From Pseudolactococcus reticulitermitis (GTDB lineage: Bacteria; Bacillota; Bacilli; Lactobacillales; Streptococcaceae): a stretch of DNA of 64,000 nucleotides. Positions 7,336 through 64,000 of the stretch are shown here, piece after piece. Location: positions 1 through 64,000 of the forward strand of contig NZ_BEDT01000001.1 of NCBI RefSeq assembly GCF_002260845.1, written 5' to 3'. Made by a program: the position numbers and the translations under genes. The notes beneath the pieces were generated by a model, which worked only from the letters and a program-made list of their open reading frames with translations, ran no database searches and had not been told where the DNA came from. Every line of letters starts with the position of its first letter. The stretch's first letter is position 1.

Positions 7336-8235
7336 TTAGTCTTCTCTTAATTTTTCTAGTGTCGCTTGGAATAATTTCGGTGGCTCAAGTTCAAATTCTA
7401 GCCATTCATGCGTTGTTGGATGTTCAAATCCTAGCATTTGCGCATGTAGAAACTGACCTTGATTCGGTTTGAGCGCATTTTTCGGCCCGTACAAGGGATC
7501 GCCTGCGACGGGATGCCCGATATAGGCCATATGCACCCGAATTTGGTGGGTACGACCCGTCTCAAGTGTTAAGCTGACCAAGGTAAAATCACCAAAACGT
7601 TCTAACACTTCAAAATGGGTCAAGGCAGGCTTACCACCCGCAATCACAGCTTGCTTTTTCCGATCCTTAGCATTGCGACCTATCGGCGCTTCAATCACAC
7701 CACGGTCATTCAACAAATTCCCATGGATAATGGCAAGATAACGACGTTTCGAGGTATGTGCTTTGAGTTGTGCGGCTAGAAATTCATGCGCTTGGTCATT
7801 TTTAGCAACCATTAACAGACCACTGGTATCCTTATCGATACGGTGGACAATGCCGGGTCTGATGACACCATTGATGCTTGACAAGTTGGTCATGTGGTAC
7901 ATCAAGGCGTTGACGAGTGTACCTGTTTGATGACCTGCTGAGGGATGGACGACCATGCCTTGGGGTTTGTTAATCACGGCGACAGCATCATCTTCATAGA
8001 CGATATCAAGCGGGATGTTTTCTGCCTCGTAGGACAGCACTTCTGGCTCAGGAATTTCAAAGGACACGATGTCATTTTCTAATACTTTGTACTTGGCTTT
8101 TTTGACTTGACCATTGACCAAAACAGCATCTGCTTTAATCAAGTCGTTGGCCTGAGTTCGTGAGACGTCTGAGTTATCTGAGATGGCCTTGTCAAGTCGC
8201 AATCCTGCGGACTGGGCTTTAATTTTTATTTCCAA
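7336..8235 (-). CDS. rluD: 23S rRNA pseudouridine synthase, RluD family
   Basis: 299 residues. An S4 RNA-binding domain (about 13-60) is followed by the pseudouridine synthase domain with the catalytic Asp in HRIDKDTSGLL (Asp134). Family members of this architecture modify uridines in helix 69 of 23S rRNA; the precise target here is inferred. It starts 6 bases after lspA ends, and this lspA-rluD pairing is common in Firmicutes. Confidence 0.9.
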   Translation of the reverse strand: MEIKIKAQSAGLRLDKAISDNSDVSRTQANDLIKADAVLVNGQVKKAKYKVLENDIVSFEIPEPEVLSYEAENIPLDIVYEDDAVAVINKPQGMVVHPSAGHQTGTLVNALMYHMTNLSSINGVIRPGIVHRIDKDTSGLLMVAKNDQAHEFLAAQLKAHTSKRRYLAIIHGNLLNDRGVIEAPIGRNAKDRKKQAVIAGGKPALTHFEVLERFGDFTLVSLTLETGRTHQIRVHMAYIGHPVAGDPLYGPKNALKPNQGQFLHAQMLGFEHPTTHEWLEFELEPPKLFQATLEKLRED

Positions 8236-8241
8236 TTTATC

Positions 8242-8700
8242 TTAACCTTCATCTTTTTCTATCAAAATACCAATAAAGAGCACCACGAATCCTACCGACA
8301 GCAAAATATCTGCCACATTGAAAATAGGAAAGTTGATAAAGTCGAGCTGAAACATATCAACGACATAGCCTTGGCGCACTCGGTCAATAAAGTTGCCCAA
8401 AGCACCTGAAATAATCAGCGTTAGCCCAATAGCATACCAATTTTTTGACAGATTTTTGAGCCAAAACCAGATGGCGACTACCAAGACAAGCACAGTTGTC
8501 AAGACAAAGAACCATTGCTGACCTTCTAAAATCGACCAAGCCGCGCCATCATTTTGCAGATGTGTCAGTGATAAAAGACCTTTAAGCATAGGCTTTTGTT
8601 CAGATAATTTGATATTTTTGACAGTCGCCATTTTGACCACTTGGTCAAGAATAATACCTAATACAATCACAATTGGTAAACTTATTTTTTTCAACTTCAT
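8242..8700 (-). CDS. lspA: Lipoprotein signal peptidase II
   Basis: 152 residues with four hydrophobic segments (about 7-23, 60-80, 90-105, 125-148). It removes signal peptides from diacylated prolipoproteins in the membrane, such as the ApbE lipoprotein encoded at 51637. The two catalytic aspartates are in GNFIDR (Asp106) and FNVAD (Asp131). No Shine-Dalgarno site precedes the ATG. Instead TATAAT ends 6 bases before it, so the mRNA may be leaderless. Confidence 0.95.
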   Translation of the reverse strand: MKLKKISLPIVIVLGIILDQVVKMATVKNIKLSEQKPMLKGLLSLTHLQNDGAAWSILEGQQWFFVLTTVLVLVVAIWFWLKNLSKNWYAIGLTLIISGALGNFIDRVRQGYVVDMFQLDFINFPIFNVADILLSVGFVVLFIGILIEKDEG

Positions 8701-8767: not shown

Positions 8768-11215
8768 TTATTTCAAGTTTGCCGATTTAACGCCACCTTC
8801 AATCGCCTCATCAAAGATGAAAGAACCATTTGAGGTGCGGTCGAGTAGATTTAAATCTGGTAGATTAATTTCAAACAATTTATCGGTTTGGGATTGGACT
8901 TGTAAAATTTGTAAGTCTTGATCCGTTTCAGCAAATAAATCGCCACCGTAGACGTTTTTAACGGTTCCTGAATCAAAAACTTTATGCGGTGATTTTTTAA
9001 GCTCCCGGAGTATTTGCAAGCCACGACCCGCACGGCTTTTAGCAGGAATTTCAATGAAATTCACACGTTTCAAAGAGCCACGCTGGGTCAAGACATAGAA
9101 TGAATCGGTCTCAGCAAAATAGCTTGCGACAACAAAATCACCATCTTTTAAGTTAATGGATTTAACACCAGCTGCTTTTGCCCCCACAACTGGCACATCT
9201 TGCGACGGAAATCTCAAGGCGTAGCCGTTGTAAGTGACTAACATCACATCTGCTTGTCGATCAAAGTCTACTGAAACAACTTGATCATCAGCTTGTTTAA
9301 ATTTGGCATACTGGGCTGATTTAGAGCGGTAAGTGCGCCATGGTTTGAAATCAGTCAGTGCAACTTTTTTGATTAAACCAAATTTCGTTGCGACCATTAA
9401 TTCGCGCGTTTCCAAGTCGAAATCATCTAAAATTTGGACAAATAGAATTTCTTCCTCTTGAGAAAAATTGTTGACCAAAGAAGAGCTGTGTGTGCCAATA
9501 TCTTTCCACTTAATATCATCCAGCTCATGAATCGGTCGATAGATGACATTGCCAAAAGTCGTAAATAACAACAAATGCTGAGTCGTCAGCGCTGCTTGAT
9601 GGAAAATCAGGCAATCATCTTCACGTTTGCCAATTTCTGCCAGTTTAGAGGCTGAAAAACTACGTGGCGTTGTCCGTTTGACATAGCCAGAACGCGTCAC
9701 GCTGACAATCGTTTCTTCTTTAACGATGAGTGAGGCCGCCTCCACTTCAATCGCGACCACTTCGTCCACTAAGATACTTTTACGGGGTTGCCCAAATTTC
9801 TTCTTAACTTCACGAAGTTCACGTTTCATGACATTAAACATTGTTTTTTCATCATTGATGATAGCTGACAAGGTTGTGATGCGTTCTTTGAGCTCCGCCT
9901 CTTCATTTTGTAGCGTCACCACATCGGTATTTGTCAAACGATAAAGCTGTAAGGTCACAATAGCCTCAGCCTGTGCTTCACTAAATTCATAGGAAGCCAT
10001 CAAGTTTTCTCTGGCATCCGCTTTATTATCGCTGGCACGAATGAGGGCAATGACTTCATCCAAAATGCTCAGAACACGAATCAGACCTTCCACGATATGG
10101 AGACGTTTTTCAGCTTTGTCTCGATCATAAATCGACCGTGAGCGAATGACATCTCGTTTATGGCTGATATAGCTTGACAAGATTGGGACAATCCCGACTT
10201 GACGCGGTGTGGCATTGTCAATCGCCACCATATTGAAGTTGTAATTGACCTGCAAATCGGTATATTTGAGCAGATAATTCAAAATCAGCTCAGCATCGGC
10301 ATCTTTTCTCAGCTCAATCGCAATTCGCAAGCCATCACGGTCAGATTCATCACGGACTTCCGCAATGCCTGCGACTTTCGCATTGACACGGACATCATCG
10401 ATTTTCTTGACCAAGGTTGCTTTGTTGAGTTCATAAGGAATTTCAGTGACGACAATTTCCTTTTTCCCGCCCTTGAGCTCTTCAATCTTGGTTTGAGACC
10501 GAACGACGACTTTACCTTTACCCGTTTCGTAGGCTTTTTTTATCTCAGACTTGCCTTGAATCATCGCACCCGTCGGAAAGTCTGGGCCTGGTAGAAAATC
10601 CATCAGTTTATCAACAGTGGCAGTCGGATGGTCAATCATATAGACTGTGGCATCAATGACTTCACTTAAATTATGCGTCGGAATGTCCGTCGCGTACCCC
10701 GCTGAAATTCCTGTTGACCCATTAACCAAAAGATTGGGAAAGCTGGCGGGTAAAACAGTCGGCTCTTTTTCGGTATCATCAAAATTCCAGGCAAAGGGTA
10801 CGGTGTTTTTGTCGATATCTTGTAGGAGGTAGGCGGAAATTTCAGATAGGCGGGCCTCGGTATAACGCATGGCTGCGGGTGGATCACCATCCATGGAGCC
10901 GTTATTACCATGCATTTCGACGAGGACTTGCCCCATCTTCCAGTCCTGAGAGAGGCGAACCATGGCATCATAAATCGAACTATCGCCGTGGGGATGATAG
11001 TTACCCATGATATTGCCGACGGACTTGGCAGATTTCCGGTAACCTTTGTCAAAGGTATTGCCATCTTTATTCATCGAATAGAGAATCCGCCGTTGAACGG
11101 GTTTTAAGCCATCGCGAATATCAGGCAGCGCCCGCTCCTGAATGATGTATTTTGAATAGCGACCAAATCGGTCGCCCATAATCTCCTCTAGAGAGAGTTT
11201 TTGTACATTGCTCAT
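8768..11215 (-). CDS. parC: DNA topoisomerase IV subunit A
   Basis: 815 residues. It is the DNA breakage-reunion subunit that decatenates chromosomes with ParE. The active tyrosine is Tyr118 in [11 protein letters not shown]. The quinolone-determining segment reads HPHGDSSIYD, with Ser79 and Asp83 present, i.e. the susceptible state in streptococcal numbering. Beta-pinwheel repeats fill the C-terminal third. Its length and C-terminus separate it from GyrA at 52697. It is separated from parE by two potassium-transport genes, unlike the usual parE-parC arrangement. Confidence 0.95.
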   Translation of the reverse strand: MSNVQKLSLEEIMGDRFGRYSKYIIQERALPDIRDGLKPVQRRILYSMNKDGNTFDKGYRKSAKSVGNIMGNYHPHGDSSIYDAMVRLSQDWKMGQVLVEMHGNNGSMDGDPPAAMRYTEARLSEISAYLLQDIDKNTVPFAWNFDDTEKEPTVLPASFPNLLVNGSTGISAGYATDIPTHNLSEVIDATVYMIDHPTATVDKLMDFLPGPDFPTGAMIQGKSEIKKAYETGKGKVVVRSQTKIEELKGGKKEIVVTEIPYELNKATLVKKIDDVRVNAKVAGIAEVRDESDRDGLRIAIELRKDADAELILNYLLKYTDLQVNYNFNMVAIDNATPRQVGIVPILSSYISHKRDVIRSRSIYDRDKAEKRLHIVEGLIRVLSILDEVIALIRASDNKADARENLMASYEFSEAQAEAIVTLQLYRLTNTDVVTLQNEEAELKERITTLSAIINDEKTMFNVMKRELREVKKKFGQPRKSILVDEVVAIEVEAASLIVKEETIVSVTRSGYVKRTTPRSFSASKLAEIGKREDDCLIFHQAALTTQHLLLFTTFGNVIYRPIHELDDIKWKDIGTHSSSLVNNFSQEEEILFVQILDDFDLETRELMVATKFGLIKKVALTDFKPWRTYRSKSAQYAKFKQADDQVVSVDFDRQADVMLVTYNGYALRFPSQDVPVVGAKAAGVKSINLKDGDFVVASYFAETDSFYVLTQRGSLKRVNFIEIPAKSRAGRGLQILRELKKSPHKVFDSGTVKNVYGGDLFAETDQDLQILQVQSQTDKLFEINLPDLNLLDRTSNGSFIFDEAIEGGVKSANLK

Positions 11216-22949: not shown

Positions 22950-22957
22950 AATAATTT

Positions 22958-23129
22958 TCCTTTCTGCGATTTTACTCTGTAAAATCTTGAAACTTGACCT
23001 ACGCTGGCGCTCCGTCCAAGCGGGGGCATTCGCGAGCTTTGTCCGCTCAAAGACTTTCTGCGATTTTACTCTGTAAAATCTTGAAACTTGACCTACATTG
23101 GTGCCTCGTCCAAGCTGGGTCATTCATAA
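22958..23129 (-). repeat. Tandem pair of leader repeats before the acetylesterase gene
   Basis: Two copies of a 70-75 base element lie in the gap after the IIC gene. Shared blocks are GCTTGGAC, AGGTCAAGTTTCAAGATTT and AAATCGCAGAAAG. Both contain the hairpin GATTTTAC-AGA-GTAAAATC. The second copy ends in AGAAAGGA, the ribosome site of the esterase gene. A third copy lies at about 61906-61976 in the opposite orientation. Confidence 0.8.
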
Positions 23130-61874: not shown

Positions 61875-61903
61875 TTCACTTTCTTTACTTAACTGAGTAT
61901 AAT
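61875..61903 (+). promoter_or_regulatory. Promoter of the hydrogenase-like/ABC operon
   Basis: TTCACT (61875-61880) and TATAAT (61898-61903) are 17 bases apart; +1 is near 61910, exactly where the repeated leader element begins. Confidence 0.7.
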
Positions 61904-61905
61904 TC

Positions 61906-61976
61906 GCGAATGACCCCGCTTGGACAAAGCGCAGGTCAAGTTTCAAGATTTCATAATATGAAATCGCAGAAAGGAG
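61906..61976 (+). repeat. Third copy of the leader repeat, at the 5' end of the operon mRNA
   Basis: It shares GAATG, GCTTGGAC, AGGTCAAGTTTCAAGATTT and AAATCGCAGAAAGGA with the tandem copies at 22958-23129 but lacks a 7-base segment in the middle. The hairpin arms are changed in a paired way (GATTTCAT / ATGAAATC instead of GATTTTAC / GTAAAATC). It ends in the ribosome site of the first gene. Confidence 0.8.
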
Positions 61977-61981
61977 AAACT

Positions 61982-62599
61982 TTGAAACAAAACCATATTT
62001 TGCAGTTAGATGCCAAGAATGCTTTTACTTATCAATTACCAATCAATCCAATGATTGATTTAGTTGACCAATATCTTTTTGAGGCCAAGCTATTAAATGA
62101 CTACGATTGCCTATTGATAACTGAATTTGTTGATCAAGAATTACTTTATCGGCATCGACAAGCTATTTTACACTTTTTAAACAGTCAAAAAATTGTCATC
62201 TTCTGCGGTCAACTCTTCCGTGATTTTATACCGGGGGCGACACTTTTCATGCCTAAGGCTATCAAGGCTCATCAAGATTACAACCTGTACATCACGCCAG
62301 AATCAGAGATTTTTAAATCTGTTAAAGTCGATGAGCTCAACTATCGGCGTGGGGTTGCTGGCTTTAATGCTAGAGGCTACCATCGCCCCGCTGAAACTGC
62401 TGAGATACAGTTGACTTTTAAATCTGGAGAAGTCGTGACATATATAGATAGAACAACGACCCCAGGCACGATTTTAATGCACGCTGGTCGCAATTTATTT
62501 GGCTATCAAGGAGAAAATAAGTCGACAGACCAAATCAGCCAAAATACGTTGGCTTGGGTCAATCAAGAAATTTTAAAACTGAAAGGGGGGCTAAAATGA
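61982..62599 (+). CDS. Uncharacterised protein, first of two tandem paralogs
   Basis: 205 residues from a TTG at 61982-61984, with AGGAG 5 bases upstream. A longer frame from 61910 lies wholly in the repeated leader and is rejected. An alternating strand/helix pattern, with LLITEFVDQELL then KIVIFCGQLFRDFIPG, suggests an amidotransferase-like (DJ-1/ThuA-type) fold. A catalytic triad is not evident. TTTPGTILMHAGRNLFGYQ near the end matches the next protein in position. Function unknown; it is cytoplasmic by sequence. Confidence 0.7.
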   Translation: MKQNHILQLDAKNAFTYQLPINPMIDLVDQYLFEAKLLNDYDCLLITEFVDQELLYRHRQAILHFLNSQKIVIFCGQLFRDFIPGATLFMPKAIKAHQDYNLYITPESEIFKSVKVDELNYRRGVAGFNARGYHRPAETAEIQLTFKSGEVVTYIDRTTTPGTILMHAGRNLFGYQGENKSTDQISQNTLAWVNQEILKLKGGLK

Positions 62600-63201
62600 G
62601 AAAGATTGGTGTTTTGTATGCAGGTGCTTTTTTCCATTTTAGAGCATTCTCAGAAGGCAAATTTGCGCAATTTATTCATCAAATAATTTATCTGCCAGAA
62701 CTGACACCCCAAGATTTAAAAGACTTAGATATTCTTTGGGTGCCGTCACAGTTGCCCCTGAACTTACTTGACCGTCATCAAGCCACGATCAGAGCCTTTG
62801 CGGCAAGCGGTGGCATCGTCGTTGCCATGGGACCTCAACCAAATGATTTGATTCCAAATACGGCATGGATTGACAGAGAAACTAATTTTTGGTGGTGGTT
62901 GGATTCTTCACAGTCCAGTGGTTTAAAGCTTGATACGCCTGATTATCCACTCTTTGACTACATCACTTTAGCTGATGCGACTTGGCATCAACATGGTTTC
63001 TTTAAACCACTCAATCAGGTGACCAGTCTGATTTCCAAAGAAAATGAAGGCACCATTTTTTATCTTGATAAAACGCCTGAGTTCGGTACATGGCTTGTCA
63101 CTTGTCTTGATCCTGAGTACCATTTTGGCAGTTATTTCATGCCCGCCACAGAGAAATTTTTAGAAGGTTTCTTGCCTTGGCTGGCTTATGGAGAGATATA
63201 A
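62596..63201 (+). CDS. Uncharacterised protein, second tandem paralog
   Basis: 201 residues from an ATG overlapping the previous TGA (ATGA), with AAAGGGGGG upstream. It aligns with the preceding protein by shared blocks: LLDRHQATIRAFAASGGIVVAMG against LLYRHRQAILHFLNSQKIVIFCG (parts), and DKTPEFGTWLV against DRTTTPGTILM. The residue aligned with the first protein's Cys is Met, so a shared cysteine catalysis is unlikely. The two may form a heterodimer. Function unknown. Confidence 0.7.
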   Translation: MRKIGVLYAGAFFHFRAFSEGKFAQFIHQIIYLPELTPQDLKDLDILWVPSQLPLNLLDRHQATIRAFAASGGIVVAMGPQPNDLIPNTAWIDRETNFWWWLDSSQSSGLKLDTPDYPLFDYITLADATWHQHGFFKPLNQVTSLISKENEGTIFYLDKTPEFGTWLVTCLDPEYHFGSYFMPATEKFLEGFLPWLAYGEI

Positions 63202-63819
63202 ATGACCTATGTTTGGATTAATCCTGTCGTAGAAAAGCTCTATGACCCGAAAGCATTGACACAAGTCCTTGACACGCTAGGCATGACGCGTTTTATCAAC
63301 CAAGAAAATCATGTCCAAGATGTCAAAAATCACTATCAAGAAGCGGTTAATCAGGCAACAAGTTGTGTCATCGATCAGCGATGTCCCTTAGCAGTTCAGC
63401 ATGTTCAAAGTCATTATCCCAATCGTTCGCTTACCTACCCTCAAATTCAGCCGATTTTGATTCATGCTGCCTTAGAAGCTAGGAAAAATTGCCCGTCAAC
63501 CGCCCTCCTTTACATTACAACACCTTGCCAATCCTTAGCCGAATTAGGCGATAGCCTAGCCCTAGACAATACAATCTTCCTAACTTGGCGTGCCTTTGTC
63601 CAGAAATTTAAAGTTCAGCTCGCCGCCAAAAAATTAACCGCAAGTCCTATTCCACCCGGTTTCTTTGAGCTTAAAACGGGGCAAAAAATAGCCAATCTTT
63701 GCAATAAAAATCAGATTGACTTTTTCTTTCAGCAGCATCAAGAAGAGACAACAACACTCGCTGAAATGCTCTATTGTCAAGACGGCTGTCATAACGGAGA
63801 TGGGGTCACGGATGTCTAA
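63202..63819 (+). CDS. [FeFe]-hydrogenase-like H-cluster-domain protein, small
   Basis: 205 residues; ATG directly follows the previous stop. Seven cysteines are seen: 55, 61, 97, 109, 167, 192 and 196. SCVIDQRCPLAVQHVQSHYP resembles the first H-cluster motif (TSCCPGW region), ITTPCQSLAEL the second (MPCxxK), and EMLYCQDGCHNGDG the third (CxxGCxxGGG), in the right order. The Lys after the second motif is missing. The ferredoxin-like N-terminal domains of true hydrogenases are absent and the protein is far shorter. It may bind an Fe-S cluster and act as a redox or cofactor-handling protein; hydrogen chemistry is not implied. Confidence 0.55.
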   Translation: MTYVWINPVVEKLYDPKALTQVLDTLGMTRFINQENHVQDVKNHYQEAVNQATSCVIDQRCPLAVQHVQSHYPNRSLTYPQIQPILIHAALEARKNCPSTALLYITTPCQSLAELGDSLALDNTIFLTWRAFVQKFKVQLAAKKLTASPIPPGFFELKTGQKIANLCNKNQIDFFFQQHQEETTTLAEMLYCQDGCHNGDGVTDV

Positions 63820-64000
63820 AAAAATCATACCCTCGCTACTGCTACCAGCTATCCTCTTGCTATTCTGGCAACTTGCCACCATGAACCATTGGGTAAGCGC
63901 CTATATCCTGCCTTCCCCTGCGAAAGTACTTGACACGTTTACCCTGATGCTGAAAAATGGTAGCTTACTTGTTGATACCGCCATTAGTATGAAACGGGTC
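63812..64000 (+). CDS. ABC transporter permease, SsuC/TauC/ThiX type, cut by window end
   Basis: 63 residues seen, starting with an ATG that overlaps the hydrogenase-like gene by 8 bp. A first membrane helix (SLLLPAILLLFWQLATM) is followed by the family's typical stretch VSAYILPSPAKVLDTF and a start of the transport domain. These permeases import nitrate, sulfonates, bicarbonate or thiamine precursors. The ATPase and binding protein should lie beyond the edge. The overlap implies co-translation with the three upstream genes. Confidence 0.8.
   Translation, partial: MSKKIIPSLLLPAILLLFWQLATMNHWVSAYILPSPAKVLDTFTLMLKNGSLLVDTAISMKRV

Follow-up and report, generated by a model that had tools for sequence, protein, structure and literature searches.

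We propose that an operon of Pseudolactococcus reticulitermitis encodes an uptake system for a metal chelate, most likely of iron, in which a small relative of the [FeFe]-hydrogenase H-domain, here called miniH, reduces or handles the metal; we give this reading a probability of about 55%. In it we infer the substrate, the cluster content of miniH, its role as a reductase, the part played by the accessory proteins P1 and P2, and iron control in this organism. The operon begins at the end of the window, that is, the whole stretch of 64,000 nt analysed (contig NZ_BEDT01000001.1, positions 1 to 64,000), of which it occupies positions 61982–64000. Its genes follow each other in the order P1, P2, miniH, SsuC-like permease, SsuB-like ATPase and SsuA-like SBP, the importer genes extending beyond the window edge.

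P1 (61982–62599, forward strand; 205 aa), a paralog of P2 with homologs that adjoin ABC importers, is read from a TTG start with AGGAG 5′ of it; a longer alternative ATG frame opens at 61910. P2 (62596–63201, forward strand; 201 aa) overlaps P1 by 4 bases and is followed by miniH (63202–63819, forward strand; 205 aa). The first part of the gene for an Ssu/Tau-type permease (BPD_transp_1) takes up 63812–64000 of the forward strand, and this gene extends to contig position 64579 (L002 2313–3080). The importer ATPase (contig 64557–65276) lies 3′ of the permease and is succeeded by an SBP of SsuA/NMT1 type (contig 65273–66265), the N-terminus of which is lipobox-like; 3′ of the SBP gene, a terminator-like hairpin of 12 pairs closes the operon. 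Permease, ATPase and SBP each score far above their Pfam cut-offs. A preliminary description of this DNA had listed four overlapping or abutting genes, among them two tandem paralogs and an SsuC/TauC-type permease. All four genes were found in place, the permease assignment was borne out by the Pfam score, and the kinship of P1 and P2 proved weak yet real (BLASTP 23% identity, E 3e-7; P2 profile on P1, E 1.5e-10).

One scan of a collection of 84,980 species returned six miniH loci, one of them in genome G710, which together with the window protein make seven homologs. The six relatives belong to Caccovicinus, Treponema UBA4328, Clostridia bacterium UC5.1-1D2, Erysipelotrichaceae, Lachnoclostridium An14 and Peptococcaceae. 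Within the family of the window genome, miniH is present in 1 of 196 genomes, namely the window genome itself. A search of the phylum at E 0.01 matched 45 of 398 genomes, the match being full-length only in the window genome and G710; many of the other matches are ordinary long H-domain proteins. At the same threshold, 5 of 395 genomes of the order were matched, and the four besides the window genome were rejected as miniH, three crossing stop codons and the fourth (L008) reaching a sub-threshold 4.7 bits with the miniH profile. Plasmid and phage collections contained no miniH homolog at E 1e-3.

Comparison of the neighbourhoods shows that the linkage of miniH to the importer is not unique to the window strain: the order miniH, permease, ATPase, SBP is found in 7/7 loci, with genes that overlap or lie at most 52 bases apart. 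The SBP gene of one draft record (L042) is split into two frames (7414–8411). In the six relatives miniH is the first gene of the operon; P1 and P2 adjoin it in the window only (1/7 loci), one other contig having just about 600 bases upstream. The Treponema (L041) and Peptococcaceae (L045) loci additionally carry an FmdE-like protein.

Profile comparison shows that miniH is genuinely related to the H-domain of [FeFe]-hydrogenases, though in trimmed form. When the seven miniH were compared with 14 H-domains by hhalign, a value of 98.8% was obtained (E 9.6e-17, 188 columns), control alignments of P1, P2 and FmdE-like proteins giving at most 0.8%. It is the relatives that settle this kinship, the window protein alone scoring 13.9 bits against PF02906, under the cut-off of 22.1. 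The Peptococcaceae miniH exceeds that cut-off with 45.9 bits, alone among the seven members, and a match to PF02906 at E up to 0.1 is seen in four of them. Run on 29 proteins from loci with PF02906 or miniH matches, a profile of the seven miniH reached 43.5 bits at best; in the same test no more than 6.0 bits was obtained among 609 reversed or shuffled sequences. When only solved structures were searched with the miniH profile, the best match was an iron hydrogenase, at a weak E of 0.18. Hence the profile match to PF02906 that had been set beforehand as a check on the 63202–63819 product was obtained, and is clear only with relatives included. As described previously, the window protein has three cysteine motifs in H-domain order, and these are kept in all seven homologs. 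In the miniH of L044 (6434–7423), an inserted stretch of about 100 residues, built from degenerate repeats, separates the first two of these motifs.

Residues were compared in an alignment of the seven miniH with 12 other H-domain proteins. Common to both groups is the Pro of the SPQQ-type segment, and the four cubane-ligand cysteines (C61, C109, C192 and C196; L1, L2, L3) are conserved, 4/4 in 7/7 miniH. The diiron-site positions, which we take to be C299 (the proton-relay Cys), M353, K358 and M497 in CpI numbering, are changed in every miniH: the proton-relay Cys to R, M353 to T, K358 to L or F, and M497 to L. The lysine of K358 is kept by all 12 other H-domain proteins, M353 and M497 varying in some. 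Thus miniH resembles the [FeFe]-hydrogenase H-domain proteins (PF02906) in the profile match over 188 columns, in the ordered cubane cysteines and in the SPQQ-type Pro, and differs from them in its length of 205 aa, in having no extra cluster domains and in its diiron positions, with an Arg in place of the proton-relay Cys. As the cubane cysteines are kept and the four diiron-site positions are changed, miniH is probably a [4Fe-4S] protein devoid of the diiron subcluster, and not a hydrogenase. HydF is present in four of the six other miniH genomes and was not found in two (some of these genomes are drafts). In the window genome, which is 99.9% complete, neither HydF (best 93.6 bits, cut-off 325.55) nor HydG (19 bits, cut-off 312.15) was found. 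Taking these results together, miniH seems to be independent of H-cluster maturation.

In Pfam nothing matched P1 even with E allowed up to 1, and in NCBIfam nothing matched it significantly; P2 matched no Pfam or NCBIfam family significantly. Four aligned homologs of P2 share invariant His, Trp and Asp residues, including H131, H133, D172 and H176, which would fit metal or ligand binding. As to a class-I GATase/ThuA-like fold of P1 and P2, a fused P1/P2 paralog in L057 scored 25.1 bits with DUF4159 (cut-off 25.9) and 17.4 bits with ThuA (cut-off 33.4), both under the cut-off. At E 1e-8 the P2 profile matched 1 of 398 genomes of the phylum, the window genome, and P2 matches were found in 32 plasmid records. 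Neighbourhoods were sampled at 19 of those 32 plasmid loci and at the window, 20 in total, with profiles built in part from the same loci. An ABC importer adjoins P2 in 20/20; 15 of these importers are FecCD-type (siderophore), 2 are Dpp/Nik-type, 2 are Ssu-type and 1, from a haloarchaeon, is Fbp-like. P1 accompanies P2 as a separate or fused protein, the P2 half alone being recognised in L073 and L074; in L057 the importer is divergent to P2, and 3 of the 19 plasmid loci adjoin TonB-type receptors or hemin genes. The P1/P2 and FmdE-like accessory proteins are shared with FecBCD-type siderophore importers, whereas the permease of the latter (FecCD) is unrelated to that of the window and the scanned FecCD loci contained no miniH.

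FmdE-like proteins occur in 16 of 30 loci scanned. One published study (PMC2954224) reports that the FmdE family adjoins metal-ion transporters. An FmdE-like protein of Methylosinus scored 22.2 bits with FmdE (PF02663; E 1.5e-4), just under the cut-off of 22.9. The FmdE-like proteins of two miniH loci did not match FmdE when compared with Pfam at E values as high as 1; one miniH-locus protein finds the Methylosinus place by tblastn (E 4e-8). From the FHGHxC metal motif of FmdE, only His-Gly is invariant in the FmdE-like proteins. The membership of the miniH-locus proteins in the FmdE family is borderline, since the link is made by similarity to a single protein that nearly reaches the cut-off. 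At four plasmid loci (L063, L068, L058 and L059) a FecB-FecCD-ATPase importer and an FmdE-like gene are followed by C-P lyase genes, an arrangement that suggests an unusual uptake route for phosphonates or metal-phosphonates. An importer of related type on an E. coli plasmid (L062 5927–9404) is flanked by two FmdE-like genes; no miniH was detected there. DNA near-identical to this importer region is present in 5 of the 5,426 complete genomes of E. coli, always on plasmids.

We then consider the promoters. In 5/7 miniH loci a palindromic operator, GTTA-N6-RCTAA, is no farther than about 35 nt from the listed start; it was first spotted by eye on four miniH promoters, and a fifth gut locus was added by script. 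In L043 it overlaps the listed start codon. The chance of finding it per shuffled 72-nt promoter is 0.0017–0.0053; beyond the promoters, these loci have a single copy in 68 kb, and 32 other loci have 5 copies in 104 kb. The feoB loci of the miniH genomes (the Peptococcaceae one included) and of the window genome provided an independent test, in which the first 1,500 nt of 15 of the 22 matched loci were scored. Eight operator sites were found in the 15 loci, compared with a mean of 0.20 and a maximum of 2 in 200 shuffles. In four of five operator genomes, An14 being the exception, such a site immediately precedes the first feoA-like gene (so named by reading), and two genomes have an extra site just 5′ of feoB. 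At the Erysipelotrichaceae feoAB locus L084, a DtxR-family gene (452–838) is divergent to the operator.

The miniH operon of Peptococcaceae (L045) has instead a Fur box matching at 17/19 positions, a value reached by 0 of 300 shuffles; one feoB locus of the same genome has a candidate box with a 15/19 match. A DtxR-type box of the haloarchaeal P1-P2 operon (15/19, p 0.003) stands out among 21 promoters scored for Fur/DtxR boxes, a sample in which weaker values of p 0.03–0.05 are expected by chance and in which one locus (L080) is unannotated, its gene start being guessed. Irr-type boxes were not enriched in 14 loci containing P1/P2, FmdE-like or Ssu proteins (1/14 at p 0.025). Predicted iron-type sites are thus present at 6/7 miniH loci, comprising five feoAB-type operators and one Fur box. 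At the level of such predicted sites, iron control is supported for the six relatives; neither the feoAB-type operator nor a Fur/DtxR box was found at the window operon, nor any of these sites at feoB of the window genome.

Since the operators are shared with feoAB, a Fur box is present, and P1/P2 and FmdE-like partners elsewhere are found mostly with FecCD importers, iron or another chelated metal is favoured as the substrate. The SsuA-type lipoprotein would bind a small metal-ligand complex, the SsuC/SsuB-type permease and ATPase would import it, and cytoplasmic accessory proteins would release the metal. P1 and P2 may bind or cleave the ligand, and miniH, which retains the [4Fe-4S] ligands alone, would donate electrons one at a time to the complex once imported (ferric to ferrous), in the manner of FhuF or SIP. 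FhuF and SIP reductases reduce ferric siderophores; FhuF is a [2Fe-2S] protein and the SIPs are flavoproteins, with folds different from that of miniH, and the likeness lies in the proposed job, namely reduction of an imported ferric chelate. By this analogy, we favour an electron-transferring reductase as the role that would most economically explain a cytoplasmic [4Fe-4S] miniH in an iron-starvation operon.

Several findings count against the metal-chelate reading: the feoAB-type operator and the Fur box are both missing from the window operon, whose palindrome belongs to a dispersed repeat, the SBP exceeds the SsuA_fam cut-off, P1/P2 and miniH occur together in the window only, Irr-type boxes are not enriched, the FmdE-like miniH-locus proteins have no FmdE match, and FmdE-like proteins are also found in C-P lyase operons, which may point to a phosphonate-like substrate. 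If the reading is true, known ways of freeing iron from imported chelates, which are few, would be extended by a further reductase type, derived from the hydrogenase H-domain, and that fold would acquire a second bacterial job; three orphan families (miniH, P1/P2 and FmdE-like) would receive a function, and gut anaerobes as well as a lactic-type bacterium are predicted to import metal chelates in an iron-responsive way. P1/P2 and FmdE-like proteins are linked to FecCD, Dpp/Nik, Fbp-like and Ssu importers, and a wider proposal is possible, although we hold it tentatively: that the hydrogenase fold was recruited for metal acquisition, as a diiron-less [4Fe-4S] reductase removing iron from an imported chelate, and that miniH, P1/P2 and FmdE-like proteins make up an interchangeable set of accessories serving at least four ABC importer classes in bacteria and archaea. 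The parts of the operon belong to known superfamilies. In the open-licence papers searched, no description was found of a diiron-less H-domain in an iron-type importer operon or of accessory exchange among importer classes, and nothing on FmdE or PF02906 together with an ABC transporter and a siderophore.

The main rival for the role of miniH is that of a carrier, scaffold or sensor for Fe-S clusters or iron, similar to eukaryotic Nar1 and receiving the imported iron with no reduction of the chelate. Nar1 likewise is an H-domain protein without the diiron [2Fe]H cofactor, and one report states that recombinant Nar1 carries a [4Fe-4S] and an unexpected [2Fe-2S] cluster and proposes that it traffics clusters (PMC12621388). 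However, Nar1 has two conserved [4Fe-4S] sites and acts in cytosolic Fe-S assembly, whereas miniH has a single H-domain set of four invariant cysteines, is bacterial and is tied to an importer. We consider such a carrier somewhat unlikely.

The metal-chelate reading has also to be weighed against the kind of importer involved. The SBP of the window scored 171.1 bits in an NCBIfam run against the SsuA_fam subfamily, above the cut-off of 163.5, and among solved structures it comes closest to an aliphatic-sulfonate-binding protein (2x26); permease and ATPase are of the matching SsuABC/TauABC kind. Because the SBP family is SsuA-like, some weight is kept by an Ssu/Tau-like importer of sulfonates or other organosulfur compounds, with a redox Fe-S protein aiding desulfonation. 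We regard it nonetheless as unlikely: no SsuD- or TauD-like gene (sulfonate monooxygenase/dioxygenase) was noticed on reading the ORFs of the seven miniH operons, the relatives have feoAB-shared operators and a Fur box, and P1/P2 are elsewhere mostly accompanied by FecCD importers. The preliminary description had supposed that an Fe-S or redox protein works with an importer of an organic or sulfur-containing substrate. The partnership stands, an H-domain relative being tied to an Ssu/Tau-type importer in 7/7 loci, but the substrate is not favoured, as the same operators, Fur box and FecCD partners indicate a chelated metal. SaoX, which shares its wider superfamily with the window SBP, belongs to the ABC transporter of the SAO system, a system implicated in metal chemistry (PMC13188914); the window SBP falls far under the SaoX cut-off (38.2 vs 300 bits), and no SAO gene was noticed in the operon.

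The SBP belongs to the NMT1/THI5 Pfam family as well, which would suit an importer of a vitamin-like cofactor precursor (thiamine, flavin or similar). This is very improbable, as TPP, FMN, cobalamin and NiCo riboswitches gave no match in L002 1–5300 at E up to 1, nor in the six other miniH loci at the gathering threshold. One glycine riboswitch was found in L044, about 1.2 kb beyond the SBP gene.

The organism type had been described as not known for hydrogenases, which is wrong for the window genome: it has HydABC-type genes adjoining PFOR, an ECF S-component and a flavodoxin, the latter named by reading (L003 707–10061, L003 being contig 1, 538000–552000). The closest solved relative of the resident HydA is HydA1 (729 bits), and HydA is over the cut-off in 3/12 genomes of the genus. 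That miniH is itself a small hydrogenase, or a maturation helper of this HydABC in a genome where HydF and HydG were not found, is scarcely credible given the changed M353, K358, M497 and proton-relay Cys equivalents in 7/7 miniH, the distribution of HydF among the other miniH genomes (4/6) and the genus relatives G009 and G035, which have HydA without a miniH match. A degeneration of the resident HydA, considered because of its TSCSPGW segment with Ser where other aligned proteins have Cys, was dropped, since HydA1 of PDB 7q4v is identical there and also has Ser.

Upstream of the operon, a palindrome and RBS occupy 61945–61980 (no strand assigned). The perfect 19-bp palindrome GATTTCATAATATGAAATC (61947–61965) was rejected as an operon-specific operator because it lies inside a repeat unit of about 97 bp, palindromic at its core, that is dispersed in the genome material examined, occurring in the window at 22955–23125 and 61897–61973, in L003 at 9286–9525 and in L048 at 609–702. 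This repeat stands in tandem copies between hydB and hydC.
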